Part shown: one piece after another, positions 2 through 56,466 of the stretch
Layout: each line of letters opens with the position of its first letter
Position numbering within the stretch: the first letter of the stretch is position 1
Notes under the pieces: model-generated
Databases searched by the model: none
What the model was told of the DNA's origin: nothing
Seen by the model: only the letters and a program-made list of their open reading frames with translations
Virus record (IMG/VR): IMGVR_UViG_3300027970_000030
Location: 1-59,343 of that record
DNA from: a virus
Direction: 5' to 3' (one strand)
Length of the DNA: 59,343 nt
Made by a program: the position numbers and the translations under genes

Positions 2-514
2 GATTTGGATTTATATAGTTCCAAAATTAAAACTTTGGGTAATTTGGAATCAGTTGGGGGTAATTTGAATTTAGCTTATTCCCCAATTGAAAGTTTGGGT
101 AATTTGGAATCAGTTGGGGGTAATTTGAATTTAGCTTATTCCCCAATTGAAAGTTTGGGTAATTTGGAATCAGTTGGGGGTGATTTGAATTTAGATAGTT
201 CCAAAATTAAAACTTTGGGTAATTTGGAATCAGTTGGGGGTAATTTGAATTTAGCTTATTCCCCAATTGAAAGTTTGGGTAATTTGGAATCAGTTGGGGG
301 TAATTTGAATTTAGATAGTTCCAAAATTAAAACTTTGGGTAATTTGGAATCAGTTGGGGGTAATTTGAATTTATATAATACCCAAATTGAAAGTTTGGGT
401 AATTTGGAATCAGTTGGGGGCGATTTGTATTTAAGAGATACTCCACTTTCTGATGCAACCACTGAAGAAGAATTAAGAAGTAAAATAAATGTTGAAGGGG
501 AGATATTACTATGA
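2..514 (+). CDS. Leucine-rich-repeat protein, N-terminus cut by window edge
   Basis: The open frame runs off the left edge, so only the C-terminal ~170 residues are seen. It is built of about seven tandem 20-residue leucine-rich units with the invariant core LGNLESVGG and a variable segment (AYSPIES, DSSKIKT, YNTQIES), followed by a short non-repeat tail ending KINVEGEILL. The units are encoded by nearly identical 60-bp DNA repeats. Such repeats usually form a binding solenoid; the ligand is unknown. The last codons overlap the ATG of a 27-codon ORF (ATGA overlap). It lies on the opposite strand to the following island. Confidence 0.85.
   Translation, partial: DLDLYSSKIKTLGNLESVGGNLNLAYSPIESLGNLESVGGNLNLAYSPIESLGNLESVGGDLNLDSSKIKTLGNLESVGGNLNLAYSPIESLGNLESVGGNLNLDSSKIKTLGNLESVGGNLNLYNTQIESLGNLESVGGDLYLRDTPLSDATTEEELRSKINVEGEILL
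29..448 (+). repeat. 60-bp tandem repeat array inside the LRR gene
   Basis: About seven direct 60-bp units are visible. Each contains the block TTTGGGTAATTTGGAATCAG, almost without change, plus a short variable stretch. The period equals one 20-residue protein repeat, so the array is coding and not CRISPR-like. The identity of the constant part suggests recent duplication or gene conversion between units. Confidence 0.9.
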
Positions 515-594
515 AAATAATAATAACTGAATCACAACTTAGGTTGATTGTTGAGAATGAGGAAAAGAATCTTTTGGATTTTACTGGACATTAA
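511..594 (+). CDS. Leader-only 27-residue ORF (candidate capsid-targeting leader remnant)
   Basis: The frame starts MKIIITESQLRLIVENEEKN and stops after 27 codons. Its first 15 residues closely match the N-terminus of the zincin at 809-1456 (MKIIISEQQLKQLITEG). It therefore looks like the shared leader with almost no cargo: a remnant of a deleted gene, or a decoy peptide. The ATG overlaps the stop of the LRR gene (ATGA), which suggests translational coupling. Whether it is expressed cannot be told from sequence. Confidence 0.45.
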   Translation: MKIIITESQLRLIVENEEKNLLDFTGH

Positions 595-604
595 AATAAT
601 AAGG

Positions 605-802
605 TTATTTAATATGTTTGAATACTTTTCTGATATTCTTTGGTAATGAATTTATTGGGATTAATTTGGCTTTAATTGTTTTAAGTTTTTGTTTAACAGC
701 TTTTTGGGCTCTGTGATGACCATCAATTATGGTTAAGAACTTATTATCATCATTAACAAATATTAGTATAGGATATTTCTTGGATTCTATATATTTGTTC
801 AT
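605..802 (-). CDS. ParB/sulfiredoxin-like small protein
   Basis: This is a 65-residue protein with the motif IIDGHHRAQKAVK, the D-G-H-x-R signature of the ParB/Srx nuclease-like fold. It is much shorter than a full ParB domain, so it covers only the core, or is the remnant of a larger protein. The larger leader protein at 1453-2418 ends with a related motif (ISDGRHRLLAA). It lies just downstream of the zincin gene on the same strand. No leader is present. Confidence 0.6.
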   Translation of the reverse strand: MNKYIESKKYPILIFVNDDNKFLTIIDGHHRAQKAVKQKLKTIKAKLIPINSLPKNIRKVFKHIK

Positions 803-808
803 TTAAGT

Positions 809-1456
809 TCATTTCCATTTTGCTTGAGGTAATAATTTTTTTCCGAATTCGATTAGTTTATCTTTAACTTTGTTCATTTCTTTTTTTGATTTAAATCTGT
901 CTTTTCTTTCGTCAGCCCATTCATCAATAACATCATCCATATACATTTTTCTTGTTTTGGCTTGGGTATAAAAACCTTGGATATATGCTGGTAGTTCTCT
1001 TGGTGTTAATACTTCTTGTGCAAATGAGTTATACGCCTTATTTCTAACATCTTTTTCCGGATTTTCGGTTTGGGATATGTGTTCGATTTCGTGTCTGATT
1101 GTATCTTTTAATTCCGCCAATAATTTATTTATTTGATTACCTTTAAATAGTTTTGGGTTAATATCAATTGTAAAATCAATAATATTAAGGTAATTTTCAT
1201 CATCAAATTCATAACCACCACTGATATCAAATGCTATTTCTGAATCAGTTTTAGTTAGATGTAATTCAACGGTAAATACTTCTTCATCAAATGATTCGTG
1301 AATATACTCATTTTCCCAGTCAATTTCTTCATCATCACTTTTGAGGAAGGATTTAATTTCTTTCATTAAGTCCATACTGATTTCTCTTGTGACTTGACTA
1401 TATCTTCCCTCAGTGATGAGTTGTTTAAGTTGTTGTTCTGATATTATTATTTTCAT
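809..1456 (-). CDS. Leader-bearing HExxH zincin-like protein
   Basis: The protein is 215 residues. The N-terminus MKIIISEQQLKQLITEG is a leader ending in I-T-E, a T4-type prohead-protease consensus. Around residue 120 lies IRHEIEHISQ, a zinc-metalloprotease HExxH helix, followed by LTPRELPAYIQGF, whose glutamate is a candidate third zinc ligand. I infer a metallopeptidase carried in the virion; the substrate is unknown. The gene start overlaps the end of the next gene by 4 bp, so it belongs to one operon running to 4876. Confidence 0.75.
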   Translation of the reverse strand: MKIIISEQQLKQLITEGRYSQVTREISMDLMKEIKSFLKSDDEEIDWENEYIHESFDEEVFTVELHLTKTDSEIAFDISGGYEFDDENYLNIIDFTIDINPKLFKGNQINKLLAELKDTIRHEIEHISQTENPEKDVRNKAYNSFAQEVLTPRELPAYIQGFYTQAKTRKMYMDDVIDEWADERKDRFKSKKEMNKVKDKLIEFGKKLLPQAKWK

Positions 1457-2418
1457 TTTAAGTTTGATTCTAAGTAGTTAATATCTTCTTCATTTGGATT
1501 TTGTATTTCAAATGGGAATTCTTCTAATCCTAGATTAAATGCTGCCAATAGTCGGTGTCTTCCATCTGAAATTCCAATTTTTGGTTCTTTGTTTTTAACT
1601 TTTTGTCCACTATCATCATATCCCCAATTTTCAACATATAATGCGGTTGGTTGATATGCTTCAACATCTGTATTTTTAAGATATTCCATTGCTTTCTCCA
1701 GTCTATTTCCAATTCTTACACCTTGATTTCTGATATCAAAACTTGAACCCATATCTTTACCGACTCTTTCTAATACTTTTTGTGGTGAAAGATAAATAAC
1801 TTCTGAGTTGTTACTTCTTTTTACAATTGTTTTTGAACCCCAGTCAATATTGAATTTCTTTGATGTTTTGGTTGTTTTATTTGAGGTGATGTCGTTGTAA
1901 GTATTTTCTAGTAATTGGTTAATGTATTTAATTAATTCAAACATTGAATTATTATCTTTGTATATTAATTGATAATAATTGTTAATATTTGATTTAAGAG
2001 TTTCTTTATCTGAGGTTGATGTATTTTTAATTTCATTTATAGATTTTTCAATTTGGTAATATAACTTAACCATATAATTGAAATAATCATAGAACTTATT
2101 GATTCCTGTTCTATCTATATCCTCTTCCTTTACTATAATTCGTTTAAGCCTAGATTCATTGAGTAACCCAAGTGTTGATTCACAATACTTTGCATTAATG
2201 AATATTTGTCTAAATAATACATCTAAACCTTTTAAAAATTCTTCAATAAAACTTAATATATTTTGTTTATTATTTTTGGGACTTTCATTGAATATGGTTT
2301 TTAATTTGTTCATTGCATCATCTATATGTTTATGATTTGCAATTAGATAGTGTAACTCTTTATCCAATTTGGTTGTTTCTTCCCTCAATATTCTTCTTAT
2401 TGTTTGTTTTAGGCTCAT
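1453..2418 (-). CDS. Leader-bearing protein with C-terminal ParB-like domain
   Basis: The protein is 321 residues and starts MSLKQTIRRILREE, a basic amphipathic leader with an L-R-E site. The middle is helical and low in recognisable motifs. The last ~110 residues include a ParB/Srx-like signature, IGISDGRHRLLAAFNLG, near residue 280. ParB-like folds bind or cut DNA, hydrolyse CTP or act as ATP-dependent enzymes, so activity cannot be assigned. It overlaps its neighbours by a few bases on both sides. Confidence 0.7.
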   Translation of the reverse strand: MSLKQTIRRILREETTKLDKELHYLIANHKHIDDAMNKLKTIFNESPKNNKQNILSFIEEFLKGLDVLFRQIFINAKYCESTLGLLNESRLKRIIVKEEDIDRTGINKFYDYFNYMVKLYYQIEKSINEIKNTSTSDKETLKSNINNYYQLIYKDNNSMFELIKYINQLLENTYNDITSNKTTKTSKKFNIDWGSKTIVKRSNNSEVIYLSPQKVLERVGKDMGSSFDIRNQGVRIGNRLEKAMEYLKNTDVEAYQPTALYVENWGYDDSGQKVKNKEPKIGISDGRHRLLAAFNLGLEEFPFEIQNPNEEDINYLESNLK

Positions 2419-2675
2419 TATTTTGTTTTTTTAACACAATTAGGGTATCTTTTTCCGAACATTGTTTTCATTCCTTTTTGGGTATAACCTTTCCAACATT
2501 TTTCGGTTAATTCTGTTTTTGAATTATCGTGACCACACTTATGACATAAATATGGGTCATCCCCACCATCAGATAATTTCCAAGAATGATTACATTGACC
2601 ACAGATTACTTTTTCATCTTCTGTGACTAAGTTCATCATTTCTTGAATTCTTTGTATTTGTTCTTGTAGGTTCAT
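2418..2675 (-). CDS. Small zinc-ribbon protein with phage CWKGY tail motif
   Basis: The protein is 85 residues. After a helical N-terminus (MNLQEQIQRIQEMMNLVTED, ending V-T-E like a leader) comes a zinc ribbon, CGQCNHSW then CHKCGHDN. The C-terminal motif CWKGYTQKGM...YPNCVKK recurs in marine phage proteins of unknown role. The cysteines fit one four-cysteine zinc site plus a second Cys pair. It sits between two leader genes in the same operon. Confidence 0.7.
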   Translation of the reverse strand: MNLQEQIQRIQEMMNLVTEDEKVICGQCNHSWKLSDGGDDPYLCHKCGHDNSKTELTEKCWKGYTQKGMKTMFGKRYPNCVKKTK

Positions 2676-2679
2676 AATT

Positions 2680-3750
2680 TTAAAAATCCATTACATCAAA
2701 GTGAATTAATTCACCATCTTTTATTCCCATATTACCGCCGTGTAAATCTGCGGTTGGGACAACATTATCTTCCAATTTTAATAAAAGTTCTTCATATTTT
2801 TCAATATAATCAACAATTTCACTATAATCTAAGTCATATGGTTCTAGTTCATCTTTTGGTCTAGGATTTGACAATCTTTCAGATACTATATCTATTATTT
2901 CATCTCTTTCATCATCATCACCATTGAATAAGTCCCAAAAAGTACTATCTGAATATCTAGCTTCTTCATAAAATAATACGGTATATACGGTTTCATCTTT
3001 TTCTGATAATAATTCAACTTCATCCATTAAGATTGCATACACTTTTGATTTTGGGTAATATTTTACATCATAGTAATGGATAACACCAGGAACAGTTCCT
3101 CCCAATTTTTTTTGTATATTTATTACTTTTTTGATTCCTCTAATTTCATCATCATTATTTGTTAGTTTGAGGATTTTGTCATCATCAACCATAAATGCCA
3201 TTCCGAAATGACCTTCACCGGCATATTTAATTTTATTTATATTGAAATCATTTTTGAGGATTTTTATTGTTTCACCTAGGTTATCACCAATACTTTGATG
3301 TATCTTTCCAACACCTCTTGGTTCATTTGATTTTACATATTTGTCAAAATCTTTTTGTAGTTTTTCAGGATTGGATAAGTCACCATAATCGGTAAAATCT
3401 TCAGATAGATTTTTGGCTTGATAAACCCATTTGATATATTTGGGGTCATTTTTTATTCTATCTCCATATATCATTTTTAATAATTCTGGTGTGTTTGGTA
3501 TTATCCAAGTATCGGTGTCAAAATTTATTAATCTATCGTGAAAAGAATCAATCTCTGTGAAGTATTTCTTAAATGGATTATATTTTTGGTATAATTCTTC
3601 TTTGGTTATTTCCAATGTGTCAAGCATGTTATCCAACCCCATTGAATGTATTAAGGACATTAGTCCCATTGTTTCAATAAGTTTTTCCATTTTGGACTTT
3701 GGGGTTTTTTCAGATTCTTCCCTCAGTATTCTTCTAATTAAGTTTCTCAT
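2680..3750 (-). CDS. Leader-bearing protein-kinase-like protein
   Basis: The protein is 356 residues with leader MRNLIRRILREES (L-R-E site). Next comes a region shared with the 4406-4876 protein (PKSKMEKLIE then GLDN.LD.L). The C-terminal half looks like a protein kinase fold: a glycine loop GEGHFGMAFMV near residue 178, a candidate ATP lysine in KILKLT, the catalytic loop DLHGGNMG near residue 335 and FDVMDF in place of DFG. The gene ends soon after, so the C-lobe is minimal. I infer a small-molecule or protein kinase delivered with the virion; the substrate is unknown. Confidence 0.75.
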   Translation of the reverse strand: MRNLIRRILREESEKTPKSKMEKLIETMGLMSLIHSMGLDNMLDTLEITKEELYQKYNPFKKYFTEIDSFHDRLINFDTDTWIIPNTPELLKMIYGDRIKNDPKYIKWVYQAKNLSEDFTDYGDLSNPEKLQKDFDKYVKSNEPRGVGKIHQSIGDNLGETIKILKNDFNINKIKYAGEGHFGMAFMVDDDKILKLTNNDDEIRGIKKVINIQKKLGGTVPGVIHYYDVKYYPKSKVYAILMDEVELLSEKDETVYTVLFYEEARYSDSTFWDLFNGDDDERDEIIDIVSERLSNPRPKDELEPYDLDYSEIVDYIEKYEELLLKLEDNVVPTADLHGGNMGIKDGELIHFDVMDF

Positions 3751-3764
3751 TTTATTATATTTAA

Positions 3765-4409
3765 CTAAAACAAATCTTCTATTTTGTCCATATGTTTTTT
3801 GACTATTGGTAAATCCACTATATCTGAATATTCCATACCCTTTCTTTTCATCTGTTGTATTTGTTTATGTAATGTTTTCATCATATTTCTTATTGAGTGC
3901 CCCATAGACGGATAATTCAAAATAATGTCACTTAATTGGTAATGTTGTTTTGGAAGATTCAACTCGTTCCCTAATTTTTTAACCCATTCCATTCCATAAT
4001 TATGAGCATCTATTTCCATTTCCCAATAAAGTTTATATAGTTCTTCAAAATCTTCAATTTCACCTGACATTGGGTTTTTTTGTTTTAATTTACCCATTTG
4101 TATTTCGTGTTGTATTTCGTGGAATAATATATAAATAAATTCGGATATTGTATTAAAACTTGTTGGTGAACAAATTATTATAAAGTTTTTTGTTCTCACT
4201 CCCTTAAATCCTGTCTCACAATTGTTTAATACTTTGATATTAAAACCTTCTTCATTTATATAGTTTTTTATCTTTTCAAAAACATCTTCAATTTTATCTT
4301 CATAACTTTTTGGTGTTATTGATTTAAAATGTTTTAGTATAGTATCAAAATTACTAGTCTTAGATAAATCTTCCCTCAGTATTCTTCTAATTGTTTCTTT
4401 TAGTTTCAT
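3765..4409 (-). CDS. Leader-bearing HExxH metallopeptidase-like protein
   Basis: The protein is 214 residues starting MKLKETIRRILRED, with an L-R-E site. Around residue 97 lies LFHEIQHEIQMG, a zinc-binding HExxH helix. About 30 residues later comes YWEMEIDAHNYGM, whose acidic residues could give the third ligand. It is unlike the other zincin at 809-1456 outside the motif, so two different peptidase-like cargoes share the leader type. It overlaps the upstream gene by 4 bp. Confidence 0.75.
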   Translation of the reverse strand: MKLKETIRRILREDLSKTSNFDTILKHFKSITPKSYEDKIEDVFEKIKNYINEEGFNIKVLNNCETGFKGVRTKNFIIICSPTSFNTISEFIYILFHEIQHEIQMGKLKQKNPMSGEIEDFEELYKLYWEMEIDAHNYGMEWVKKLGNELNLPKQHYQLSDIILNYPSMGHSIRNMMKTLHKQIQQMKRKGMEYSDIVDLPIVKKHMDKIEDLF

Positions 4410-4876
4410 TCTAAATTATGAGTTATTTGGAATTCAACACCTTTTGGTATCATTGGTTTAAGGTAGGAAAAAACAATTATACTACTAATTTCATTTTGGA
4501 CTTCCCACCACCAGTATTGTTGCCATAAATCAGAGTCCCATAAATCAAATTCTCCATCATCTAAAATTACAGAACCATCTAATATTTTAACATATATATC
4601 CCAAATATCATCAGTATAAACAATGTCTTTAATAACAAAATTAAAATCATATGGCCCTACTTCACTTTTATTTAATTTTTTTGTTGAAACTTCTTTGTCA
4701 AGGATGAAGTCTTTAAATAAATCAATTGCTGTGGTATCTAATATATCCAAAATATTATCCAAACCAACTGATTTAACTGTGGATATAATCCCAAGTTTTT
4801 CAATAAGTTTTTCCATCTTAGATTTTGGGACATTCTCGTTTTCTTCCCTCAGTATTTTTCTAATTAAGTTTCGCAT
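4406..4876 (-). CDS. Leader-bearing protein of unknown function
   Basis: I place the start at the methionine of MRNLIRKILREEN, because that gives the canonical leader; an in-frame methionine five codons upstream exists. The first ~50 residues are paralogous to the kinase-like protein (PKSKMEKLIE, GLDNILDIL). The rest is acidic and tryptophan-rich (LWQQYWWWEVQNE) with no known domain. It is the first gene of the island operon and has an ATATTTATA box 3 nt upstream of the ATG. Confidence 0.7.
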   Translation of the reverse strand: MRNLIRKILREENENVPKSKMEKLIEKLGIISTVKSVGLDNILDILDTTAIDLFKDFILDKEVSTKKLNKSEVGPYDFNFVIKDIVYTDDIWDIYVKILDGSVILDDGEFDLWDSDLWQQYWWWEVQNEISSIIVFSYLKPMIPKGVEFQITHNLE

Positions 4877-9920: not shown

Positions 9921-10286
9921 ATGAAAAGAATTGTTAGATTAACTGAACAAGATTTGGTTAGATTGGTGAAGAGGGTAATCAATGAAGATGACGATGAGAG
10001 TAAATTAATTGATTTATTAAGAAGTAAGAATATTAATAATGTTAAACTTGGATTAATGCTTTATGATTCTCAGGATATTGGTGTTAAAAAGGATGTGGTT
10101 GATAAAGCTAAAGCAAATGTGTTAAGTATGTATCTAATTAATTTATCAGATTTAGAGGTAAATAATTTTGCTGATGAACTTGGTTTTGGTGATTGGTTTA
10201 AAGGTAAAGATATTGACAGTTTAACCAAAAAAATTGTGAGATTTGGACATTGGGATAAAATAAAGATAAAAATATTATATTCGTGA
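9921..10286 (+). CDS. Leader-bearing small protein
   Basis: The protein is 121 residues. The N-terminus MKRIVRLTEQDLVRLVKRV-INED is the longer leader type also seen at 28973-29377 and 56059-56466; it ends I-N-E. The remainder is a small charged helical domain without known motif. It is translationally coupled to the next gene (GTGA overlap). Confidence 0.7.
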   Translation: MKRIVRLTEQDLVRLVKRVINEDDDESKLIDLLRSKNINNVKLGLMLYDSQDIGVKKDVVDKAKANVLSMYLINLSDLEVNNFADELGFGDWFKGKDIDSLTKKIVRFGHWDKIKIKILYS

Positions 10287-11674: not shown

Positions 11675-14035
11675 CTAATATAATATACCATCTGTTCCTA
11701 TAGATGCTGTTAAATGACTTCTGTTTATTTTAAATTTCCCACCTGGTAACTTTTTATCACTTCTTAATGAATATAGATATCCATATGAACTTCTTCCGCA
11801 ATGTCCCATTCTTTGACATTCTTCATCTGAATTGTTTGTTTCTAGGTCAACCCAATAATATCCTTCACCATCTTTTCTAAAATCAATAATGATTGGGTGG
11901 GTTTCTTCATAATTGATTGCACCATCACCAATATTTAAACTATCGTGCCATATCTTTGCGTCTGTAATTATATCAGTTATACTAGTTTCTTTGTCGTAGT
12001 GACTTGTAATTTTATTATCTAAACCTCCAACACTTTTTGGCGCTCGATTATAATCCATTATTGATACTAAAACCGGTATTATTCTTTGGGGATGTAATTC
12101 ATTTATTTTCTTCTTAGCTGCATTTAAAACATCCGCTTTAGTCATACCATAATTAATTAAATCGATATTGTTATCATAGTACATTTTAAGATATTTGTTA
12201 GCAATCCAAACAGAAGTTTTTCCACACACTCGGTCGAATGTTTCTGCTAATCCTGGTTTCATCCCAATTTTTTCAGTTAAGATTTTTAATCTCTCCTCTT
12301 GTTTATCTTCAGTTAATAATCCAAAATTTTCATTATATTCTTTCAAAATGTTTATAACATCTCTATCACTATAATTTTCATTAATTGAGTTGCTTTTGAG
12401 CTTTCTGTCTAAAATCTTTCTAAGATAAAAATTGAATTGATTTCTATCTAAATCTATTGTTGGATAAGACCAAGTTGGTAAATCAATTAGTTTATTATCT
12501 AATAATCCATAAAATACATCTGCAACAAGATAACCATCTTGATCAGAGTTCATTTCAAATTCTTGAAACACTTGTAATACAGTATCACTATTAACATTAA
12601 CTAGGTTTGTTAGGTCACCTTCTATTATTATAGCTTCATCCCTTTGTTCATCATTAACATACCCATAATGTTCTAAAGTTACAATCAATGAATCTTTATA
12701 TTCTTCTCTTGCCGATTCTAACATAGTTTGTGTGGTAGCCTGTTCTATAGCATATGATATGTCCTCACGTATATCATATGATTCAATCATATCATTTATA
12801 CTACCTTCAACAAATTCTTTGTTTTCTTTTTTAGCTAATATTTTTAAGAGTTCAATTATTTTATTTTTATTTTCATCTCTAATATATTCTGTTGCTTCAA
12901 ACCAATGTATAAAATCCAAATTATCAATTACAAAATCATTAAATTGTTCAAAATAATTCTCATTGTGAAAGGTTTTTAATATAACTTCAGATAAGTAAAC
13001 ATCTCTTTTAGTGTTATAATAATTATTTGAAATCTGTTGATACAATTTTGTGTCATTTTTAATTAAAGTATGAACTATACTATAATCAAAATTAATATAA
13101 TATTCTGTATTAAAATTAAATCTACTTGTAACTCCAAGTTCTTGTAATTTTTTATAATCATTAACTCCAGTATATAAATCAGGTCTTTCTTTGTATAATT
13201 CTAAAAATTCATTATCTGTTAAGTCAGTTAATTTGAAGTCATTCCCAGTCACATATTCTTTACCAAAATAATTAATGAAATATCCCCCATCATCTAATTT
13301 AAGTTGTAAAAGTGGTATGATATATTTGTGATATTCTGATTTTGGTTTGGAGTTATTCTTTCCTTTTAATTGATATACTATACCATCACCATTAATTGCT
13401 GCGGTTAAATGACTATCATTTAGTGTATATTTTTTTCCTGGTGCGTATTTGTAACTTCTTAAAGAATATAATGTACCTTTATCACTTCTACCACAATGTG
13501 ACATTCTATTGCATTCATCTTCTGAATAATCTCCTTTTAGGTCAATCCAATAATATCCTATCCCATTTTCACGAAAATCTAATCCTGGTATAATATTTTC
13601 TTCTTTTTCTTTGTAATTATGTTTACCACTATTTTTTTCCCATTCTGTTGCTAAGATTCTAATATCCTCCAAATTTAATTTTTCTAATGATTTTGTTTTT
13701 CCACTTAATTCGTATGTAATATAATCTTTTATCATCATGTATTGTCTGTTTATTTCTTCATTTTGTAAATCAATGTCAGATAACGCGCTTTTAACTGTTG
13801 GATATGTATTTGGCATCAATATTTTAGAATAATATTCACCAATTTTATTAGCCATAAAAATTGTGTTGGATTTGAATATACTTTCAAATAGTTTGGCCTT
13901 GTCTTCTGACATTCCAAATACTTTAACCAAAGTATCAACATTTTTGGCTTCAGTTATTAAAGTTCCAAACTTGTCATTATATTCTTTAAGAAGTCTGACA
14001 ATGCTATTTTCGTAATATTGTTCTTTTAGTTTCAT
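11675..14035 (-). CDS. Large leader protein with two PcfJ-like domains
   Basis: The protein is 786 residues to the TAG, 1090 if read through. It starts MKLKEQYYENSIVRLLKEYN and then TLITEAK, a leader-like module that recurs at about residue 555 (DVINILKEYNENFGLLTED) before the second domain. Each module precedes a domain with the motif ECxRMxHCGRS, SLRS, SHLTA and GDGIVYQLKG...NSKPKSEYH. That pattern resembles PcfJ-like proteins (G.CV....SLR...H.T.E...I.Q.KG..N..P...Y). The second domain is cut by TAG exactly where the others have Gln. Function is unknown. Confidence 0.75.
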   Translation of the reverse strand: MKLKEQYYENSIVRLLKEYNDKFGTLITEAKNVDTLVKVFGMSEDKAKLFESIFKSNTIFMANKIGEYYSKILMPNTYPTVKSALSDIDLQNEEINRQYMMIKDYITYELSGKTKSLEKLNLEDIRILATEWEKNSGKHNYKEKEENIIPGLDFRENGIGYYWIDLKGDYSEDECNRMSHCGRSDKGTLYSLRSYKYAPGKKYTLNDSHLTAAINGDGIVYQLKGKNNSKPKSEYHKYIIPLLQLKLDDGGYFINYFGKEYVTGNDFKLTDLTDNEFLELYKERPDLYTGVNDYKKLQELGVTSRFNFNTEYYINFDYSIVHTLIKNDTKLYQQISNNYYNTKRDVYLSEVILKTFHNENYFEQFNDFVIDNLDFIHWFEATEYIRDENKNKIIELLKILAKKENKEFVEGSINDMIESYDIREDISYAIEQATTQTMLESAREEYKDSLIVTLEHYGYVNDEQRDEAIIIEGDLTNLVNVNSDTVLQVFQEFEMNSDQDGYLVADVFYGLLDNKLIDLPTWSYPTIDLDRNQFNFYLRKILDRKLKSNSINENYSDRDVINILKEYNENFGLLTEDKQEERLKILTEKIGMKPGLAETFDRVCGKTSVWIANKYLKMYYDNNIDLINYGMTKADVLNAAKKKINELHPQRIIPVLVSIMDYNRAPKSVGGLDNKITSHYDKETSITDIITDAKIWHDSLNIGDGAINYEETHPIIIDFRKDGEGYYWVDLETNNSDEECQRMGHCGRSSYGYLYSLRSDKKLPGGKFKINRSHLTASIGTDGILY

Positions 14036-28942: not shown

Positions 28943-28972
28943 TTTTCTTATTTCTTCTACTGATACCCCAAT

Positions 28973-42559: not shown

Positions 42560-43276
42560 TCATTTTATGTTTGAGTAATGATTGATTATCATTTTCTTAA
42601 TCATTTGTTCACTAAGATTATATTTTTTACTTAATTCAGAAATCGTTCTTTTTATCATTTCTTCATTAGTAAACTTTAATGCTTTGATATCCCCTTGGTT
42701 ACAATATGGAAATTTTTTACATTTCTTTTTTACGGTTACGAATTTACCACCAGGTATTTGAGTTTTACTCTTGCCTCTCCAATCTTTTTTACTTGTTGAC
42801 TTAGCCCAAGCCGCTGGAGTCACATAAGAACCTGAAGACGCAACTCCAGTTGCTTCCTTGAATTCACCTTTATCTGATTTTCCTTGACAATGTGCTTTTT
42901 GACTGAAACCTTTTGGATTGTCACAGTCAATAGAATCTTTATATTTTTGACTCCATTTTTCTGTCATATCTTTTTTATTAGTTGTAAATAGCGGGACGGA
43001 ATATCCACCGGCACTACCTGACCCAGTAACTTCTTTAGTCTCTGATTTTCCCATTGAATATAATTTACCAATAGGTTTGTCCATTTTTGGTGTTTTTTGG
43101 GACAGATTATTAACTATATCCCCTTTTTTAATCTTTTTCTTGATTATTGTGTTTTCTGTTTGTTCTAGTTTACTCATAATATCACTAGTTGATTTAAATA
43201 ATTCTCCTTGGTCTTCCCCTCCACTTGATGTGGCAAGATTTCCAATTTTATTCGCCAAGTTTTTAGTTAAACTCAT
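42560..43276 (-). CDS. Candidate virion protein with KGFSQKAHC motif
   Basis: The protein is 238 residues, basic and Ser/Gly/Lys-rich. DSIDCDNPKGFSQKAHCQGK is a motif recurring in proteins of T4-like cyanophages and marine phages. KKKCKKFPYCNQGD follows. The C-terminal helix MIKRTISELSKKYNLSEQMI then KKMIINHYSNIK resembles a leader placed at the C-terminus. Role unknown; probably virion-associated. Confidence 0.65.
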   Translation of the reverse strand: MSLTKNLANKIGNLATSSGGEDQGELFKSTSDIMSKLEQTENTIIKKKIKKGDIVNNLSQKTPKMDKPIGKLYSMGKSETKEVTGSGSAGGYSVPLFTTNKKDMTEKWSQKYKDSIDCDNPKGFSQKAHCQGKSDKGEFKEATGVASSGSYVTPAAWAKSTSKKDWRGKSKTQIPGGKFVTVKKKCKKFPYCNQGDIKALKFTNEEMIKRTISELSKKYNLSEQMIKKMIINHYSNIK

Positions 43277-45609: not shown

Positions 45610-46410
45610 TTACATCCACTCAAATAAATCATTGGATAAGTTTCTCAACTTTCTCAAACTTTTTTCCTTTATCTGGCGCACCCTCTCTTTCGTCAAATTA
45701 AAGTCACCACCGATGTCTTCCAATGTTCTTGGTGCTCCTGTCAACCCAAAATAATCTTCCACTATAACTCGTTCTCGTTCATCCAAACAGGTCAATAGTC
45801 CCAGCAATTTGGTTCTAAGAATGTCTTTGGTGTTAAATGACTCATCCGGCATATCCGCCTCATCATTTTTGATAACATCAAATAAACTATCACCCTCTTC
45901 ATTGATATCCATATCAAGGTTAATCATTGATGGTAATGACGCAAACTTACCTTCCAATTCACCACCCTTGGCTTCAATCTCCTTCTTGGCTCTATGTAAG
46001 TCTTGGACAACATTAACTGGGAGACGAATGGTTCTTGCATTGTCATTCAAACTTTGAATAATTGATTGTTTAACCCACCACACAGCATAGGATATAAACC
46101 TCAAATCTTTATTCCAGTCAAAGTTCTTGATTGCTTTCATTAAACCATAATTACCTTCAGCAATTAGTTCAGCCAAATCAAGTCCTTGATTTTGATATTG
46201 TTTGGCAACCGTAATTACAAATCGTAAATTACCTTCCAATAGTTCTTTGTTAACATCCTCAATCTGTCTTGGTGTCAATTCACCAGACTTCATTAGGACG
46301 GATAGTTCTTTCTCCCTCTCAGGAGTCATAACTTTCTTCTTACGAATGTCCTTGAGGTAGGATTGGATCTCTTCTTGATTAATTGGAATACCTGAATTTT
46401 TCTCTTTCAT
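45610..46410 (-). CDS. Sigma-70 family RNA polymerase sigma factor
   Basis: The protein is 266 residues. Region 1.2 is IQSYLKDIRKKKVMTPEREK; region 2 is EGNYGLMKAIKNFDWNKDLR then FISYAVWWVKQSIIQSL; region 4.2 is LEDIGGDFNLTKERVRQIKE. It is a complete group-1/2-like factor without region 1.1, similar in style to Bacteroidota RpoD. It can redirect host RNA polymerase to phage promoters; the ATATTTATA box is the obvious candidate target (inference). It is coupled to the gene upstream. Confidence 0.93.
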   Translation of the reverse strand: MKEKNSGIPINQEEIQSYLKDIRKKKVMTPEREKELSVLMKSGELTPRQIEDVNKELLEGNLRFVITVAKQYQNQGLDLAELIAEGNYGLMKAIKNFDWNKDLRFISYAVWWVKQSIIQSLNDNARTIRLPVNVVQDLHRAKKEIEAKGGELEGKFASLPSMINLDMDINEEGDSLFDVIKNDEADMPDESFNTKDILRTKLLGLLTCLDERERVIVEDYFGLTGAPRTLEDIGGDFNLTKERVRQIKEKSLRKLRNLSNDLFEWM

Positions 46411-47015: not shown

Positions 47016-49235
47016 TTATTGACTTACACTACTGATATTATTTTCCTTTGTAATTTTAACAATGTTATCCGCCCAATTACTAACAAGTGGGTTATGAGTT
47101 ATAACAAACAACTTCTCAAAATAGTTCTTTATTTTACCAAAAAATTCACCAACCATATCAAGATTTTCATTTGATATTTTTCCAAACACTTCATCCATTA
47201 CCACAATATTCGGTTTTGGTAAAGAACTTATTTTAGTTAGTACCGCTCTCAACGCCAATGATGCCACAGTTCTTTCATAACCTGATCCTGATGACATAAG
47301 TTTCTCAATCTGGGTATTATTATCAATCATTATAAATTCAACCTCATTCTTGTCATTTATGTTAATCTCCAATCTAAAATGACAGCTATCTTCCAATAAC
47401 CTTTGTAACTCAGAATTCAACATCGGAATCATTGTTTTCATTATGGTTTTGGATATTCCATTCTTCCCAAAGATTTCCAAATATAACTTATAGATTTTCT
47501 CCTTGTTAGCTTCTTCTTTAATCTTAACAATTGTTTGTTCATTCTGCTCAATCTTATCTTTCAATGACTGAACCTGATAATTGTTTGAATCAATAATTCT
47601 TTGAACGGAAGTCTTCTCCCTATCTAATTCCTCAATTCTTAGGTTAGCTTTGATAAGTTGGGTTTCAATCTTGCTGTTGGTGGATATGTTATCCTGTAAC
47701 AAATTGAATTTTTCCAACTTATCTTCCAATCCTTTAATTTTCATCACATACCCTTCAATTGTCAATTCATATTTTTCTTTGATAAGTTTGTTTTTCTCAT
47801 ACTCATCAAATTCTTTTTTGAGTTGGACATACTTGGCTTCTTTGTCAATTATAATATTCATTTCCCCCTCAAATTGGTTCTTTTGTATGTTATAATTGTC
47901 AAGTTCAGATATTTTTGATTGGGTTATGGATGCCATCATCAATTCAATCCCACAATGTTCGCACTTAATCCCACCATCAACGGAGGATTTAAGTTCATTG
48001 ATTGATTTGATTTTCTGTTCAATCTGAACAATTTCTTTGTATAGAACTTTATGGGTTTCCTTTAACTTATCGTGTTCTTGTTCTGAATAAAACTCTGTTG
48101 GCTCAATAACCTTGAGTTCTTTTAATTGTCTATCAACACCTTGTTTTAGGGTTTTAATTCCCATAATTTCGCTTTGAACATTTTCCGGTACAATCTTGGC
48201 GATTTCAATATCAATATCCATATGTTTGGATTTCAATAGATTATCCCTATATTCTTGTCCCTTGATTATTCTGTTCTGAACATCAATCAAATTGTTTTGT
48301 TGGGTGATATTGTCTGATGTTAATTCATTTATCCTGGTGGAATATCCATCATTATCTGACTTCAGTTTCTCACTGGAATAAACATTTGATAACATTGATT
48401 TTGAAAACTCCGAATAGATTTCCTTTCCAATTTCTTCTTTCTTTTTAAGGAAGTCCAATCCCATAAACTTGGATAATACTTGTCCTCTTGCTGTGGGTTT
48501 GGAATCAATTAACTCTTCAAGGTTTGTTGCCGTGGTTAGAATTGTCATTAAGAAATCATCCTTTGTTCCAATGGATGTTTTAATAAAGTTTTCCGTTTCT
48601 CTTCTTTGTTCCCCAGTAAAGTTCTGTAATGAACCATCTGATAATTTCTTATAGAAGTCCAATTCAGTTTTTACATTCCAGGTGTCATCCTTTTTCTTTT
48701 TTCTTTCAATATTTCTGATGATGATATATTCATCCCCATCAATTATTATTTCACCTTTGACATGGACTTTATCGTAGTTTGAGAATCTATTGAATATTTC
48801 TTCAGCTTTGGTTGTCTTGGTTGTTTCATTGAAGAATAAGAATAACAATAGATCAACGGTTAGAACGGTGTTATGAGACACAATACCATTTGTATAATAT
48901 TGATGAACTTCAGCAACTTGGATATCATATAGGTCATCTTTAATGTCCAATAATTCAATGTTGGAGACATTACTACTACCACTAATAGTTTGTATGCTTT
49001 CACCAATTTTAATCTCTTTAAGAACAACGAATTGGTTATCGGTATTTTTTAACTTATGATAATCGGCACCTTCAACAGACATCCCATTATCAAGTTCGCA
49101 TCTATAAACTTCAGCATTTTTTTCAGTTATACCACACCATTCAATGTTTTTATACCCATATGGTGTGTTTACTTTAAACCCTAAATCACCATATTTTTGG
49201 TATAAATTATATAAATCCCCTATTTTAATTTTCAT
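47016..49235 (-). CDS. gp46/SbcC-like nuclease subunit, C-terminal half with C-intein
   Basis: The protein is 739 residues. Residues ~1-122 are an intein C-part (MKIKIGDLYNLYQKYGDLGF ... VHQYYTNGIVSHN) ending in HN before Thr. The extein continues TVLTVDLLLFLFFNE, completing the Walker A begun in the N-half. A coiled coil with the zinc hook KCEHCGIELM follows, then the ABC signature MSSGSGYERT and Walker B NIVVMDEVFG. With gp47 it would resect DNA ends for recombination-dependent replication. Function requires protein trans-splicing. Confidence 0.9.
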   Translation of the reverse strand: MKIKIGDLYNLYQKYGDLGFKVNTPYGYKNIEWCGITEKNAEVYRCELDNGMSVEGADYHKLKNTDNQFVVLKEIKIGESIQTISGSSNVSNIELLDIKDDLYDIQVAEVHQYYTNGIVSHNTVLTVDLLLFLFFNETTKTTKAEEIFNRFSNYDKVHVKGEIIIDGDEYIIIRNIERKKKKDDTWNVKTELDFYKKLSDGSLQNFTGEQRRETENFIKTSIGTKDDFLMTILTTATNLEELIDSKPTARGQVLSKFMGLDFLKKKEEIGKEIYSEFSKSMLSNVYSSEKLKSDNDGYSTRINELTSDNITQQNNLIDVQNRIIKGQEYRDNLLKSKHMDIDIEIAKIVPENVQSEIMGIKTLKQGVDRQLKELKVIEPTEFYSEQEHDKLKETHKVLYKEIVQIEQKIKSINELKSSVDGGIKCEHCGIELMMASITQSKISELDNYNIQKNQFEGEMNIIIDKEAKYVQLKKEFDEYEKNKLIKEKYELTIEGYVMKIKGLEDKLEKFNLLQDNISTNSKIETQLIKANLRIEELDREKTSVQRIIDSNNYQVQSLKDKIEQNEQTIVKIKEEANKEKIYKLYLEIFGKNGISKTIMKTMIPMLNSELQRLLEDSCHFRLEININDKNEVEFIMIDNNTQIEKLMSSGSGYERTVASLALRAVLTKISSLPKPNIVVMDEVFGKISNENLDMVGEFFGKIKNYFEKLFVITHNPLVSNWADNIVKITKENNISSVSQ

Positions 49236-50235
49236 TTTTTAAAAATTTTACACACTTTTTAATAACCTCATCTTTTTCTTTTCTATACTCAGAATCCCAT
49301 ATCACTAACACATCAAAATTATGTCTATTGGCTAATTTAATCTTAACCTCATCTTTTTTCCAAATATCTTCAGATGTTATACTTTTACGGAAAGGATTTG
49401 GGGTATCTGTAGTTATAAAAATATTAGGATTTGCATGATAACTATCTCCATTGTATTCAATAATTTTTTTATTAAAAGTATCGGTAAAGTCATATCTATA
49501 AAACCCTTCATCACCAGTTAATACAAATTCACCACCTTTTTTAGCAAACATAACATAATTCAATTCTTCAATATTTTCGTAATATTTTAATAATTCAAAA
49601 AACAAATCTTGTGACACTTTTGAATATCCTGATTTTAAATTACCGTTTTTATATAGTGATTGTTGCCATTTTTTTTGTCTTTCAAAAAATATCTTTTTAC
49701 CCTCATCTTCCCCATATTTCTCAATACATTTAACTAAACTAAATTTATTTTGGAATTCTGAAACTTTATTTTTTGACTCTTCAACTGAAAATCCTTTTTT
49801 TATCCAATATTCAACACTTCTTGGTGAGTGTAATTTACCTTCTTTAAGTTTTTTTTCTTGAAAAAGTTTAACTCCATCTTTTTCACCATATTTTATTATG
49901 AATGACCTTTCAGTGTTCATCAAGTGTAATTCTGTTTGAAGTTTAGCATCTTCTAATGAAAATCCTCTACTTATCCAATATTCAATTAAATTTGGTTTCA
50001 TTTCTTTAACTTTCTTTTTCGATTCTTCTTCAGTTAAACCCCTTTGAATCCAATATTTAACACTAAATGCAGAACCTTTAGCAATAGTAATTCCCGCATC
50101 TTTTAATCTTTTAACAATTGTTGATGTATCAACATTGTATTTTTTGGATATAAAAGTTGTGGATTTCATTTCATTGATATATAAATTTATTATATCTTGA
50201 ATTTGATTTTCCGTAAAATTACACATTTTTCCCAT
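49225..50235 (-). CDS. Free-standing homing endonuclease with Vsr-like domain
   Basis: The protein is 336 residues. An N-terminal helix-turn-helix (TTFISKKYNVDTSTIVKRLK) is followed by repeats of a W-I..G(L/F)(T/S).EE/DAK module (YWIQRGLTEEESKKKV, YWISRGFSLEDAK, YWIKKGFSVEESK). The C-terminal nuclease reads YRYDFTDTFNKKIIEYNGDS, YHANPNIF, WKKDEVKIKLANRHNFDVLV and IWDSE, a Vsr/EDxHD-like pattern. It lies between the two gp46 halves, as in published fractured genes with split inteins. It overlaps the C-half by 11 bp. Confidence 0.85.
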   Translation of the reverse strand: MGKMCNFTENQIQDIINLYINEMKSTTFISKKYNVDTSTIVKRLKDAGITIAKGSAFSVKYWIQRGLTEEESKKKVKEMKPNLIEYWISRGFSLEDAKLQTELHLMNTERSFIIKYGEKDGVKLFQEKKLKEGKLHSPRSVEYWIKKGFSVEESKNKVSEFQNKFSLVKCIEKYGEDEGKKIFFERQKKWQQSLYKNGNLKSGYSKVSQDLFFELLKYYENIEELNYVMFAKKGGEFVLTGDEGFYRYDFTDTFNKKIIEYNGDSYHANPNIFITTDTPNPFRKSITSEDIWKKDEVKIKLANRHNFDVLVIWDSEYRKEKDEVIKKCVKFLKNEN

Positions 50236-50246
50236 ACCTTTTTAGA

Positions 50247-50255
50247 AATAAATAT
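50247..50255 (-). promoter_or_regulatory. Candidate late promoter box ATATTTATT
   Basis: It lies 11 nt upstream of the homing endonuclease ATG, inside the fractured gp46 locus, so the nuclease and the C-half may be expressed later than the N-half. Confidence 0.45.
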
Positions 50256-50290
50256 ACCCATATAACTAAAAAGGTAAGGAGTGAATGTAA

Positions 50291-50896
50291 TTATTTTAAT
50301 TCATTGGGTAAAAACCCTAACTTATTAATTATATAGTCAATATCAAATTCTATTTCAATCTCCGTATCACCCCTAACGCATTTCCCGCCAAAATTACTAG
50401 GCGTTGATTCCACCACCGAGATACCATTACATTTGTCAAAATCTATTTTTTGATTTTGTCCATAAGATAAGAAATTGGAGAATTCAATATTTTTGATATA
50501 CCATTTTTTGAATGGGGTTACATCTTCATCTGATAATAGTCTATTATCAACTATTCTGTCAAGATTGAATATTTCATCTGACAATTGATTTTGATTTTTG
50601 GTGTCAAGGTATGATTTAACCAATTCATATTGATAATTTTTATCAAGGATATTGAAGGAGACATCAACCGATTGATTTGTTGTTTCAACTGATTTTGTCT
50701 TGGTTATAACATTGATATTGGTTGAGTTATATTTTTTTTGGAAGTAATGTTTTACACTTTTTATTTTTTCTTGTGTGAAGTTTTCGGCATAATCTTCCCA
50801 AATAACCTGGATGTATGGATTATCAAATTTGTTGAAATCTATATCTTTTATCATAAAATTGTAATTGTATTCTGGTGGTGGATTAAATAAATCCAT
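50291..50896 (-). CDS. gp46/SbcC-like subunit, N-terminal half with N-intein
   Basis: The protein is 201 residues. A phage-specific N-terminal region is followed by WYIKNIEFSNFLSYGQNQKI and the start of Walker A, ESTPSNFGGK. At this point the intein begins: CVRGDTEIEIEFDIDYIINK and nine more residues to the stop. The intein N-part is thus only about 29 residues. Cys1 and the GDT motif are intact. Splicing to the other half would give NFGGK-T at the ATP-binding loop. Confidence 0.88.
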   Translation of the reverse strand: MDLFNPPPEYNYNFMIKDIDFNKFDNPYIQVIWEDYAENFTQEKIKSVKHYFQKKYNSTNINVITKTKSVETTNQSVDVSFNILDKNYQYELVKSYLDTKNQNQLSDEIFNLDRIVDNRLLSDEDVTPFKKWYIKNIEFSNFLSYGQNQKIDFDKCNGISVVESTPSNFGGKCVRGDTEIEIEFDIDYIINKLGFLPNELK

Positions 50897-52267: not shown

Positions 52268-52632
52268 TTACGATCTGTTTTGTTGCGAATAAGTTCAATT
52301 TCTTTGATGCGTAATCTTATAGATGTTATTTGTTTGAAGTAGAATTCAATTTCAGAATAAATTGGCTCAAAATTATAGTGAGACATAAGTCCTTCAGAAT
52401 AAGTATTTACTGTAGCAACTAAACCTCTTTCATTTTCACCCAAATCAATTACATCTATTTTTACAATAGAATCAATCCAATCAGTAATATCTTCATTATA
52501 TTCATTTGGATTATCATTTTCTTCAATATCCGTTTTAATGGTATTGAGTATTTCATTAATTGTTTTTTCAACCTTTCTTCTTTGTTTCTCGCTGGTTTGT
52601 TCTTCTAATATTTTTCTGATAATATCTCTCAT
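52261..52632 (-). CDS. Leader-bearing small protein
   Basis: The protein is 123 residues with leader MRDIIRKILEEQTSEK (I-L-E site). The body is mixed: WIDSIVKIDVIDLGENERGL then FEPIYSEIEFYFKQITSIRL. No domain is recognised. Its own late box lies 11 nt upstream. Confidence 0.7.
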   Translation of the reverse strand: MRDIIRKILEEQTSEKQRRKVEKTINEILNTIKTDIEENDNPNEYNEDITDWIDSIVKIDVIDLGENERGLVATVNTYSEGLMSHYNFEPIYSEIEFYFKQITSIRLRIKEIELIRNKTDRNW

Positions 52633-52643: not shown

Positions 52644-52652
52644 AATAAATAT
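52644..52652 (-). promoter_or_regulatory. Candidate late promoter box ATATTTATT
   Basis: It lies 11 nt upstream of the leader gene at 52632 and overlaps the end of the 39-residue gene upstream. Confidence 0.5.
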
Positions 52653-52655
52653 TGA

Positions 52656-52775: not shown

Positions 52776-52776
52776 A

Positions 52777-55266: not shown

Positions 55267-55275
55267 ATTTGTATA

Positions 55276-55683
55276 TTATTTTTGTATGTTTATTGAAATT
55301 TTATATTTTAAACCATTATCACTCATTATATCCCAAGTAATACTTAAATCGTCAGGATTGAATAATCTTGGGGATATTACATTATCGTTTCCAAGTTTAT
55401 TAAGAGAACATTGAATACATTCAACTATTGATTTTGGAATTTCATTTGTTTTTACAAAATTGTTTATTTCCGCTTCAGTTAGATAAAGTCCGACATTACC
55501 ATCTTCATCACCAAATGTTTGTCTGAATTTTTCAACTAACCCCATTGGGAGTTCATAATTTTTTAATGTTGGGTTTGGTTCAGATTTGTCAATGTAGTAG
55601 TATATTCCTCCTTGACTTGAAATTGGGGACTTCGTAATACTATCACCTTTAGATACAATATCCATAAATCTTTTGGAGTCCAT
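55276..55683 (-). CDS. Hypothetical protein
   Basis: The protein is 135 residues (MDSKRFMDIVSKGDSITKSP, VGLYLTEAEINNFVKTNEIP). Mixed alpha/beta; no family is recognised. It is separated from neighbours by short gaps only. Confidence 0.65.
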   Translation of the reverse strand: MDSKRFMDIVSKGDSITKSPISSQGGIYYYIDKSEPNPTLKNYELPMGLVEKFRQTFGDEDGNVGLYLTEAEINNFVKTNEIPKSIVECIQCSLNKLGNDNVISPRLFNPDDLSITWDIMSDNGLKYKISINIQK

Positions 55684-55712
55684 TAATTTTTATGTTAAAT
55701 CGTTTTCCATCG

Positions 55713-56009
55713 TTAAATTATATTTGTTTTGTCATTTATTATACAAATTGACTCATCCAACTTTTCACATATTTGTTTCAATTCTTCGGTCTTGAAGTCA
55801 TCCAAACAAAACCATTCTCGTTCAATATTATAATGTTTAAATCTGAAATGGAGAGCTTTTTCAAGTTGGGTGGGGTACTTTGTTTCGTATTCAAGTATAA
55901 GGATTAAATTTGGGGAATTCAACTCCTTAAGCCTATTTTTAACCTTTCTTTTTGTATAACCAATCTTAACCTGATCTGAGTTATCTTTGATAAAGTAAAC
56001 AAATCCCAC
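55713..56009 (-). CDS. T5orf172/MUG113-type GIY-YIG-like protein
   Basis: The protein is 98 residues, starting at GTG. GFVYFIKDNSDQVKIGYTKR then VKNRLKELNSPN follows the GIY-YIG-related pattern (Y-F-I...K-I-G-T...R...L). The later EKALHFRFKHYNIEREWF has the conserved H-x-x-F and E-W-F block of the family. Members are found in phages as presumed nucleases. The start codon lies in a hairpin arm. Confidence 0.75.
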   Translation of the reverse strand: MGFVYFIKDNSDQVKIGYTKRKVKNRLKELNSPNLILILEYETKYPTQLEKALHFRFKHYNIEREWFCLDDFKTEELKQICEKLDESICIINDKTNII

Positions 56010-56038
56010 TACTTTTTTATATTAAAATAGTGGGATTA
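56003..56038 (-). terminator. Hairpin overlapping the GTG start of the GIY-YIG-like gene
   Basis: On the minus strand ATCCCACTA pairs with TAGTGGGAT around an AT-rich loop, and the GTG start lies in the 3' arm. It could end the upstream leader-gene transcript, or hide the start site. Confidence 0.5.
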
Positions 56039-56058
56039 TATAAAAGGTAAATATTATG

Positions 56059-56466
56059 TTATTTATTTTCCAATATGGTGTCAGCGACAATTGAATAGTA
56101 GAAGTCAGACAATTCATCATCTTCCATTTCTTTTATATCATCAAACCCTAAAGCATGTAATAAATTTGATATATCGTAATAATAGTATGGGATATCAATT
56201 GAACTGGGAAGTCCTTGTAACCATTCAATTAATGCTTTCTTTTGCCCATATCTTTTGATTGCCCAACCATACTCATCCAAAAATACCTCAAAAAGTTGGG
56301 TGAATTTGTTATCAACTTTCCTTTTGAAGTCATATCCTTCAAAACTAATTCTATCTTTCAAGAATTTTTTTAATTGGTCGTAGGGGTCATCTTCTCTAAT
56401 CTCATTGATTGTTCTTTTGATTAGTTTGGTTAAATCAGATTCGGTTAATCTTCTAATTCTTTTCAT
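56059..56466 (-). CDS. Leader-bearing small protein
   Basis: The protein is 135 residues from MKRIRRLTESDLTKLIKRT-INEI, a long-type leader with an I-N-E site. An upstream in-frame Met would add eight hydrophobic residues and lies inside the promoter box, so I reject it. The body is helical and acidic (YAIKRYG-like WAIKRYGQKKALIEWLQGL). Late box 12 nt upstream. Confidence 0.7.
   Translation of the reverse strand: MKRIRRLTESDLTKLIKRTINEIREDDPYDQLKKFLKDRISFEGYDFKRKVDNKFTQLFEVFLDEYGWAIKRYGQKKALIEWLQGLPSSIDIPYYYYDISNLLHALGFDDIKEMEDDELSDFYYSIVADTILENK

Follow-up and report, generated by a model that had tools for sequence, protein, structure and literature searches.

Why would a virus place nearly the same short helix at the front of many different proteins? 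The question is raised by the IMG/VR virus record IMGVR_UViG_3300027970_000030, a stretch of 59,343 bases with a G+C content of ~30% (the whole of this stretch is called the window below). An earlier note on this DNA listed 15 proteins with a shared N-terminal leader ending in (I/L)-x-E and read them as a varied protein payload packed in the phage head by means of a modular tag, a reading which is supported by the present analysis. Judged from the sequences, these leaders (in the following called tags) are very probably capsid-targeting sequences (CTSs) of the T4 type, cut by a gp21-like protease, which have been expanded to many tags and many cargos.

In T4 packaging needs no more than the first 10 residues of IPIII, the residues for targeting and for processing are separable, and gp21 cleaves after L/I-x-E, as described in a review which also suggests that CTSs let T4-like phages take in various proteins (PMC9026906). 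The T4 Alt protein is an ADP-ribosyltransferase ejected from the head; it is described as having propeptides at both ends, the C-terminus also being processed (PMC9026906).

Statistical analysis of the leaders

All 15 starts are present in the window, and each has (I/L)-x-E within its first 30 residues. Relatives were sought in IMG/VR with the sigma-factor gene of the window (45610-46410); 122 were found and 80 retained, and four among the largest were fetched whole: G001 (318 kb), G002 (272 kb), G003 (322 kb) and G005 (291 kb). The (I/L)-x-E by itself was dropped as evidence, as it is not enriched at the N-termini of the window (53 seen, 50 expected); the four relatives have a modest N-terminal excess (225 against 162, 200 against 124, 226 against 151 and 222 against 149). 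The strict motif hh[KR][KR]hhxE in the first 40 residues occurs in 5 of the 102 open reading frames (ORFs) of the window, where 500 shuffles gave a mean of 0.03 and a maximum of 2, and in 5/453, 3/359, 4/416 and 7/377 ORFs of G001, G002, G003 and G005, respectively (shuffled means 0.08-0.11). The significant element is the helix ahead of (I/L)-x-E and not the (I/L)-x-E alone.

A profile of 11 columns, with a cut-off derived from the same nulls with which it is compared, matches 63 of 1,707 N-termini; among as many shuffled ones it matches 2, and among 1,140 internal windows 1. An independent profile was made with seeds and training sites (53) only from the four large relatives, and 5,121 shuffles served as null. 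The starts at 2418, 3750, 4409, 4876, 9921, 29377 and 52632 exceed all of these shuffles, 14035, 37673 and 56466 have p values of 0.0004, 0.0010 and 0.0014, and 15865 and 42535 are at p ~0.03; the starts at 511, 1456 and 28604 are not significant (p 0.08-0.13). At 1456 the top-scoring window lies outside the leader with either version of the profile, and both 1456 and 28604 match a sister class, M-K-(I/V)-I-I-(T/S)-E-x-Q-(L/F). The claim of one leader shared by 15 proteins therefore stands for the first seven and the following three, the other five being weaker or of the sister class. A first cross-validation (8 starts above all shuffles, 2 at 0.002) was superseded, because its training sites had been chosen by a window-seeded profile and it was not independent.

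When the sister classes C, D and E are included, by regular expressions composed after inspection of the data, 11 of 102 ORFs in the window are tagged, and 22/453, 23/359, 23/416 and 32/377 in G001, G002, G003 and G005, where shuffling leads one to expect 0.3-0.6. The shared leaders are confirmed to be real.

Tag classes and the boundary behind the tag

Class A can be written M-x(0-5)-(L/T)-I-R-(R/K)-I-L-R-E and class B M-K-(K/R)-I-(I/V)-R-L-T-E-S-D-L-x-R-I-V-(K/R)-R-V-I-x-E, so that class B is in effect class A with a short front part added. Class C is M-K-I-I-I-(T/S)-E-x-Q-(L/F)-x-x-(L/I)-x-E, and class D M-N-L-Q-E-(Q/N)-I-x-R-I-(K/Q)-x-M-M-x-x-(I/V)-x-E. A DNA pattern for class B has at least 120 matches in viral contigs against 4 stretches in 84,980 prokaryote genomes, and of these 4 three are titled metagenome-assembled genome and one is an 'uncultured' assembly.

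The class B pattern ends at residue 17, which leaves residue 20 and E22 outside it. Among the matches listed there are 150 ORFs (8 cut by a contig end), and the 147 of at least 60 residues fall into 111 cargo clusters by BLAST links at E 1e-3. The glutamate E22 is found in 103 of the 111 clusters and I or L at residue 20 (P3) in 99, with V in 11 and A in 1, which departs from the phiKZ-type motif S/A/G-x-E. The boundary is sharp: the information is 3.33 bits at E22, then 1.20 and 0.37, and thereafter 0.06-0.32. The 8 clusters without E22 all have K or R at this place, and L223, L230, L242, L258, L263, L276, L278 and L279 have an extra helical turn with the glutamate at 26. For class A, with a pattern ending at residue 9, 101 stretches gave 120 matches, from which 13 shorter than 40 residues were left out; E11 is found in 30 of the resulting 35 clusters. 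Class C has, among the matches listed, at least 123 matches (2 left out) in 47 clusters.

Between contigs the same residue of a tag is encoded by the same codon with a frequency of 0.59 against 0.51 expected, i.e., the tag is conserved as protein. Within a contig the figure is 0.74 against 0.50, and some tags have therefore been copied recently. A 24-residue class B tag used in tblastn against 50,697 phage records gave no match at E 10, and no close counterpart was thus found in these records. None of the papers that were text-searched contains RLTESDL, LTESDLTRI or LTESDLARI, and a literature search, with most subscription-journal papers outside its reach, found no description of these tags, only the T4 CTS and giant-phage propeptides.

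Head assembly genes in the relatives

The earlier note proposed a search for a gp21-type protease in the rest of the genome. No such gene is found on the window with PF03420, which is uninformative because the window is a fragment, but PF03420 (the gp21 family) is present above its cut-off in 4 of 20 sigma-factor relatives and in 12 of 15 large tag-carrying contigs. PF07068, the gp23-type capsid protein, was compared in 20 contigs, i.e., these 16 and 4 of those negative for PF03420, 15 further negative sigma-factor relatives being left out. It is present in 16/16 of the positive contigs and missing in 4/4 of the negative ones, and since both genes are missing in these four, the head region is probably off those contigs.

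G001, G002, G003 and G005 have a T4-like head cluster with a portal-position protein, a core protein, a gp21-type protease (28476-29201 in G002), an acidic scaffold and a gp23-type capsid protein; a gene for ribosomal protein S21 lies inside it on the opposite strand. The freshwater Bacteroidetes phages that encode bS21 are described as having the S21 gene within the terminase-portal-protease-capsid cluster, on the opposite strand, and genomes of up to 331 kb (PMC9723584). With their matching layout the four relatives probably belong to this same group, and the tag-carrying jumbo phages thus probably infect Bacteroidetes.

A relation to head assembly is seen in Flavobacterium phage immuto (MW353175, 160 kb), a phage used in the training of neither profile; few capsid proteins of cultured phages are as close as that of immuto. 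With the first profile only two matches above 13.5 are found in its 230 ORFs, both between the portal and capsid genes: 123578-124660, which bears KKLIKKVLSE|E, and 125626-126867, which bears KDLIRDIVSQE. The independent profile again puts these two prohead-core proteins first (24.3) and second (16.7). The fourth and fifth matches are the N-termini of 113188-113946 and 81525-81944, which look tagged, and the ninth is the end of the capsid pro-region, ENQAKQIVSE|A. A large array of tagged proteins is not seen in immuto by these profiles (2/230 ORFs).

In the jumbo phages the scaffold has the site LVKESLTE|Q in G001, G002, G003 and G005; G023 has LKE|Q there and G032 LSE|Q. Behind the portal lies a protein which starts with a helix ending in LLE|S or LIE|S in G001, G002, G003, G005 and G032, with V at that place in G023. 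The capsid proteins carry LINE|A or LIYE|A (G001-G005 and others), and LINE|A is at residue 60 in G001, G002, G003 and G005, close to the 65-residue propeptide reported for T4 gp23 (PMC5694885). G026 (412 kb) has two class B-tagged genes between the portal- and protease-position genes, and their helix is one turn longer, as on the payload of the same phage. The resemblance between tags and core proteins is one of sequence only; it is strong in immuto and G026 and moderate in G001-G005.

Also in this region, L507:4754-5590 of the 401-kb phage G028, a kinase-like protein (by eye) with a class C-like tag, is encoded between the portal- and protease-position genes. A protein near the capsid gene opens with (I/L)-x-E|(A/S)-T in G001, G002, G003, G005, G021 and G032; a tag-like helix closes it in G003, G005, G021 and G032, and its versions in G001 and G002 are fused to a homolog of a zincin that is separate in the window. 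Behind the site (L508:4230-4949, L516:14413-15102) follow a Gly/Ser-rich stretch and G-(S/H)-(F/Y)-x-x-P, which resembles the capsid protein behind its likely cut site (LINE|ATSDGSSGSF). This start may be a second, capsid-mimicking kind of tag. Two stretches like it, with T or F replacing I/L, are found in the window at 42560-43276.

Cargo types, tag swapping and polyproteins

The cargo types were analyzed with 150 tagged proteins, the longest being chosen from the clusters (72 of 111 for class B, 45 of 47 for class C and 33 of 35 for class A), and with a control of 150 untagged proteins from 433 candidates in G002 and G005; source contigs and protein lengths are not the same in the two sets. 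The tagged set has 16 Pfam families, including peptidoglycan-binding, lysozyme, SLT, M23, cell-wall hydrolase, GDSL lipase and leucine-rich repeat (LRR) domains, and 31 PHROG families, the best 25 of which include 'internal virion protein with endolysin domain', 'virion structural protein' and ParB-like. The control has 71 Pfam and 116 PHROG families, with ribonucleotide reductase, thymidylate synthase, primase, sigma factor and glycosyltransferases among the best 25 of each. Families of replication, transcription or nucleotide metabolism are absent from the 16 Pfam families and the best 25 PHROG families of the tagged set. PADLOC gave a single weak CorA-like match among the 150 tagged proteins.

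One cargo, G002 225079-225489, was modeled from 8 sequences with a predicted local distance difference test score (pLDDT) of 80.3 and a predicted template-modeling (TM) score of 0.74; in the model the tag is a low-confidence helix ahead of a mostly confident domain. The first 18 matches to solved structures are all KptA/Tpt1 (best E 1.4e-4, TM score 0.49; 3 with E <0.001), followed by weak PARP matches, and the predicted fold is that of an ADP-ribosyltransferase. A model of the kinase-like protein of the window was poor (two sequences, pLDDT 37) and was not used.

A leader model and a scan of the relatives for cargo swapping had also been proposed in the earlier note; the leader profiles are given above, and 22 of 309 cargo families with a tagged member bear two or more tag classes, the classes being assigned by loose regular expressions and the families by single linkage. 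Three classes occur on a zinc-ribbon cargo: D in the window (2418-2675), A in L492, and C. A DHH-like cargo has class A in L461 and class C in L388, and an ADP-ribosyltransferase (ART)-like cargo has A in G002 and C in G003. In L398, which is on a 61-kb contig, the neighboring relatives of the kinase-like, ParB-like and first zincin-like proteins are tagged D, D and C, and in the window A, A and C. An array of 14 tagged genes in G005 (161260-177974, L145) mixes classes A, B and D, and its cargos include HAD-like and NTN-hydrolase-like proteins (by eye).

Of 90 junctions between modules of polyproteins, 42 have (I/L)-x-E nearby; random windows have it at a rate of 18.5% (binomial P 1e-9). The kinase-like protein of the window, which reads KNLSE|DFTDYGD at such a junction, can be compared with a separately tagged ortholog that reads TNE|DFTDYGD.

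Proposed mechanism and alternatives

The following steps are suggested by this analysis. A short basic amphipathic helix would dock the newly made protein onto the prohead core; after closure of the shell a gp21-like (S77) protease would cut behind (I/L)-x-E and free the cargo in the head, from where it would exit together with the DNA at infection. The phages of this group would draw on four or more interchangeable classes of tag for some 20-30 proteins in each genome; their cargos are also fused into polyproteins with sites at some junctions, and the tag-like helix is sometimes C-terminal. Some of the C-terminal helices stop where the glutamate would come next, as if docking without cutting were enough there.

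Several results weigh against packaging into the head. No head genes were found on the window fragment itself. The hydrophobic moment is above that of shuffles (p<0.05) in just 3 of 5 tags, and class C has a fuzzier end than the other classes. The lysins that could be placed (L301, L307, L322) are all on class C tags, and the untagged control also contains M23 and amidase domains. The scaffold site is LYE|Q in G021 and LRE|Q in G027, some ten residues later than in the others, and in G021 the site is missing from the core protein behind the portal. When ranked by the payload profile the scaffolds are only moderately placed (15/453, 18/359, 34/416 and 34/377, for G005 via another stretch), the core protein behind the portal ranks 51-101 and the capsid proteins 104-112 (G001-G005); with the independent profile the third match in immuto (15.5) lies inside the DNA primase gene, presumably by chance. 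There are few C-terminal tag-like helices: the strictest cut leaves 4 where 0.3 are expected, and looser cuts leave 7 against 2.7 and 18 against 7.7. The count of swapped families depends on the loose class definitions mentioned above, and 48 of the 90 junctions have no site, in a list which is noisy and includes repeat proteins.

There is a small chance that the tag docks proteins on some other phage or host assembly, such as the tail tube, a replication compartment or the membrane, and that (I/L)-x-E is just the end of the helix. The hydrophobic moments of 0.66-0.89 show mostly an amphipathic helix, which is common to many docking systems, and some cargos are peptidoglycan hydrolases which could serve the tail or lysis. 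Against such docking are the fixed glutamate and I/L at P3 while the following residues vary, the sites at internal module junctions beyond chance, and the like helix and site in prohead-core proteins; furthermore, each tag-carrying contig compared that has a gp21- or gp23-type gene has both. An N-terminal leader for export, membrane insertion or enhanced translation is most improbable: the tag is basic and at the N-terminus, and the cell wall is the target of several cargos, but neither a hydrophobic core nor a lipobox is seen by eye (no signal-peptide program was applied), tag-like stretches are also internal and C-terminal, and the conservation is at the level of protein. Least credible of all is that immobile leaders are shared through diverged paralogs of one ancestral gene, since the paralogous cargos that do exist (2680/4406, 11675/14039) and the excess of shared codons within contigs are set against 111 cargo clusters without BLAST links, differing domain types (ART-like, lysozyme, SLT, LRR) and the families with more than one tag class.

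If the tags are CTSs, one rule predicts dozens of unknown genes per jumbo phage to be effectors delivered by the virion, the discovery of cargos becomes a sequence search, the tags themselves become new tools for packaging proteins to be delivered by phage heads, and the non-DNA content of T4-like heads, a long-standing question, can be tested at the metagenome scale. We think it somewhat more probable than the opposite that a whole clade of uncultured jumbo phages has an open platform for loading cargo, with several interchangeable tags read by one core and one protease, where almost any gene could become a packaged and injected effector by gaining a tag. In that case the evolution of payload arrays, such as the one in G005, would resemble that of secretion-system effector repertoires, and the one protease would also trim the polyproteins.

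Comparison with known systems

The findings fit the T4 CTS mechanism and enlarge it. As in T4 there is a short N-terminal propeptide on unrelated proteins, an (L/I)-x-E end, a gp21-family protease gene (in the relatives) and a cluster of core, scaffold and capsid genes; the ADP-ribosyltransferase-type cargo resembles Alt, as described, and the C-terminal processing of Alt parallels the C-terminal tags found here. In the T4 account only a few propeptides of 10-19 residues are described, whereas here there are at least four classes and 22-32 tagged proteins per genome, other helix sequences, tag swapping and polyproteins with internal sites.

phiKZ and SPN3US are likewise reported as jumbo phages which pack many proteins with propeptides cut behind a glutamate, but these propeptides are often longer than 100 residues, and the phiKZ motif is given as S/A/G-x-E (PMC5694885, PMC13282480); a counterpart of gp22 was unconfirmed there as of the 2017 paper (PMC5694885). 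Tagged payloads are unmentioned in the consulted parts of the paper on bS21-encoding freshwater Bacteroidetes phages (PMC9723584). Immuto has head genes of the gp20/gp21/gp23 type, core proteins with a tag-like helix, two tagged-looking N-termini and a cargo homolog (L152:12261-12572) with the leader MRLLELLRE|A, but it differs in genome size and in its small number of tagged ORFs.

Features of the window

The features are on the minus strand unless stated otherwise, and the names kinase-like, ParB-like, zincin, DHH-like and zinc ribbon for single proteins come from motifs recognized by eye. The mini-ORF at 511 exists and codes for 27 residues on the plus strand, which corrects the earlier note; its class C-like tag (511-555) ends in IVE and is not significant (A/B profile, p 0.13). 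Short-unit direct repeats in 1-400 adjoin it (by eye, in translation). The zincin-like protein 809-1456 has the class C tag MKIIISEQQLKQLITE (1409-1456, sister-class expression) and an ortholog, L398:3528-4190, with the same tag and 69% identity. The ParB-like protein 1453-2418 has the class A tag MSLKQTIRRILRE (2380-2418, both profiles). The zinc-ribbon protein 2418-2675 has the class D tag MNLQEQIQRIQEMMNLVTE (2619-2675, sister-class expression), which had been overlooked; its cargo resembles that of the class A-tagged L492 (53% over 45 residues) and that of a class C-tagged protein starting MKIIISEDQF (57% over 56 residues). Its C-terminal part, residues 55-82, is 89% identical to a stretch inside the class A-tagged G005 protein at 171417, a further shared cargo module with LTE directly ahead.

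The kinase-like protein 2680-3750 has the class A tag MRNLIRRILRE (3718-3750, both profiles) and the internal junction KNLSE|DF ahead of the kinase-like module (3394-3414), which comes from the comparison with the ortholog L398:1580-2338; the class D tag with which this ortholog begins at the junction has TNE|DF at its end. The class A tag MKLKETIRRILRE (4371-4409, both profiles) is on 3765-4409, a second zincin-like protein, homologs of which are fused behind a post-capsid-gene protein in G001 and G002. ORF 4406-4876 has the class A tag MRNLIRKILRE (4844-4876, both profiles). It shares an N-terminal module with ORF 2680 (59.6% over 57 residues), and 11675-14035 and 14039-15865 are paralogs; the 15 tags are therefore on ~13 cargo groups, and the cargos do not differ completely as had been claimed.

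A class B tag, MKRIVRLTEQDLVRLVKRVINE, is at 9921-9986 on the plus strand (both profiles). The PcfJ-like protein 11675-14035, so named in the earlier note, has a tag-like N-terminus ending LITE|A (13949-14035, p=0.0004) and, in a duplicated half, an internal second copy of the leader (12308-12385, by eye); homologs in G001, G002 and G003 are tagged MKL(I/L)ESI(R/K)QIITE. Used as a search seed, this cargo found only a sister contig and one weak Salicola phage match. The N-terminus of 14039-15865 is leader-like but weak (15782-15865, p ~0.035).

Two tag-like C-termini had been overlooked: NESYFRNIIKRVLR ends 20879-22108 (20882-20923; profile 21.5, top of 1,332 C-termini) and SEQIRRTLRKLL ends 28601-28942 (28604-28639; profile 10.6, weak), each directly before the stop. 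The class C-like tag MRKIILNEEQFKRLIKLLKE of 27258-28604 (28545-28604) is not significant with the A/B profile. Further along are the class B tag MRKIIRRTERDLTKLVKRVLNE (29312-29377, independent profile) and the tag MRFKSILKRLILE|N of the LRR protein 36111-37673 (37635-37673, p=0.001), relatives of which have LITE|Q or LVTE|D at the corresponding place. Protein 41162-42535 has the tag-like start MKYSDKYLKKAIRHNLNE|T (42482-42535, p ~0.03); a G002 homolog (39.9% over 426 residues, the alignment beginning behind the leader) opens with ...KILKE|T (by eye). An internal class B-like stretch, IIRLSEDDMVDLIENIVNE, in the same protein (41762-41818, by eye) had also been missed. The last two are the class A tag MRDIIRKILEE (52600-52632, both profiles) and the class B tag MKRIRRLTESDLTKLIKRTINE (56401-56466, p=0.0014).

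Some other genes of the window deserve mention. The DHH-like gene 20879-22417 (-) is in at least two reading frames here and a single ORF of ~500 residues in L388 and L461; the downstream part of the broken gene ends in the best C-terminal tag-like helix. The protein 22558-23475 (-), with ININE|A near residue 55 and hydrophobic segments rich in glycine, is possibly a membrane-active virion protein (by eye). At 47016-50896 (-) an SbcC-like gene is apparently split by intein-like ends, possibly a split intein, with a homing-endonuclease-like ORF (49225-50235) between these ends (both by eye).

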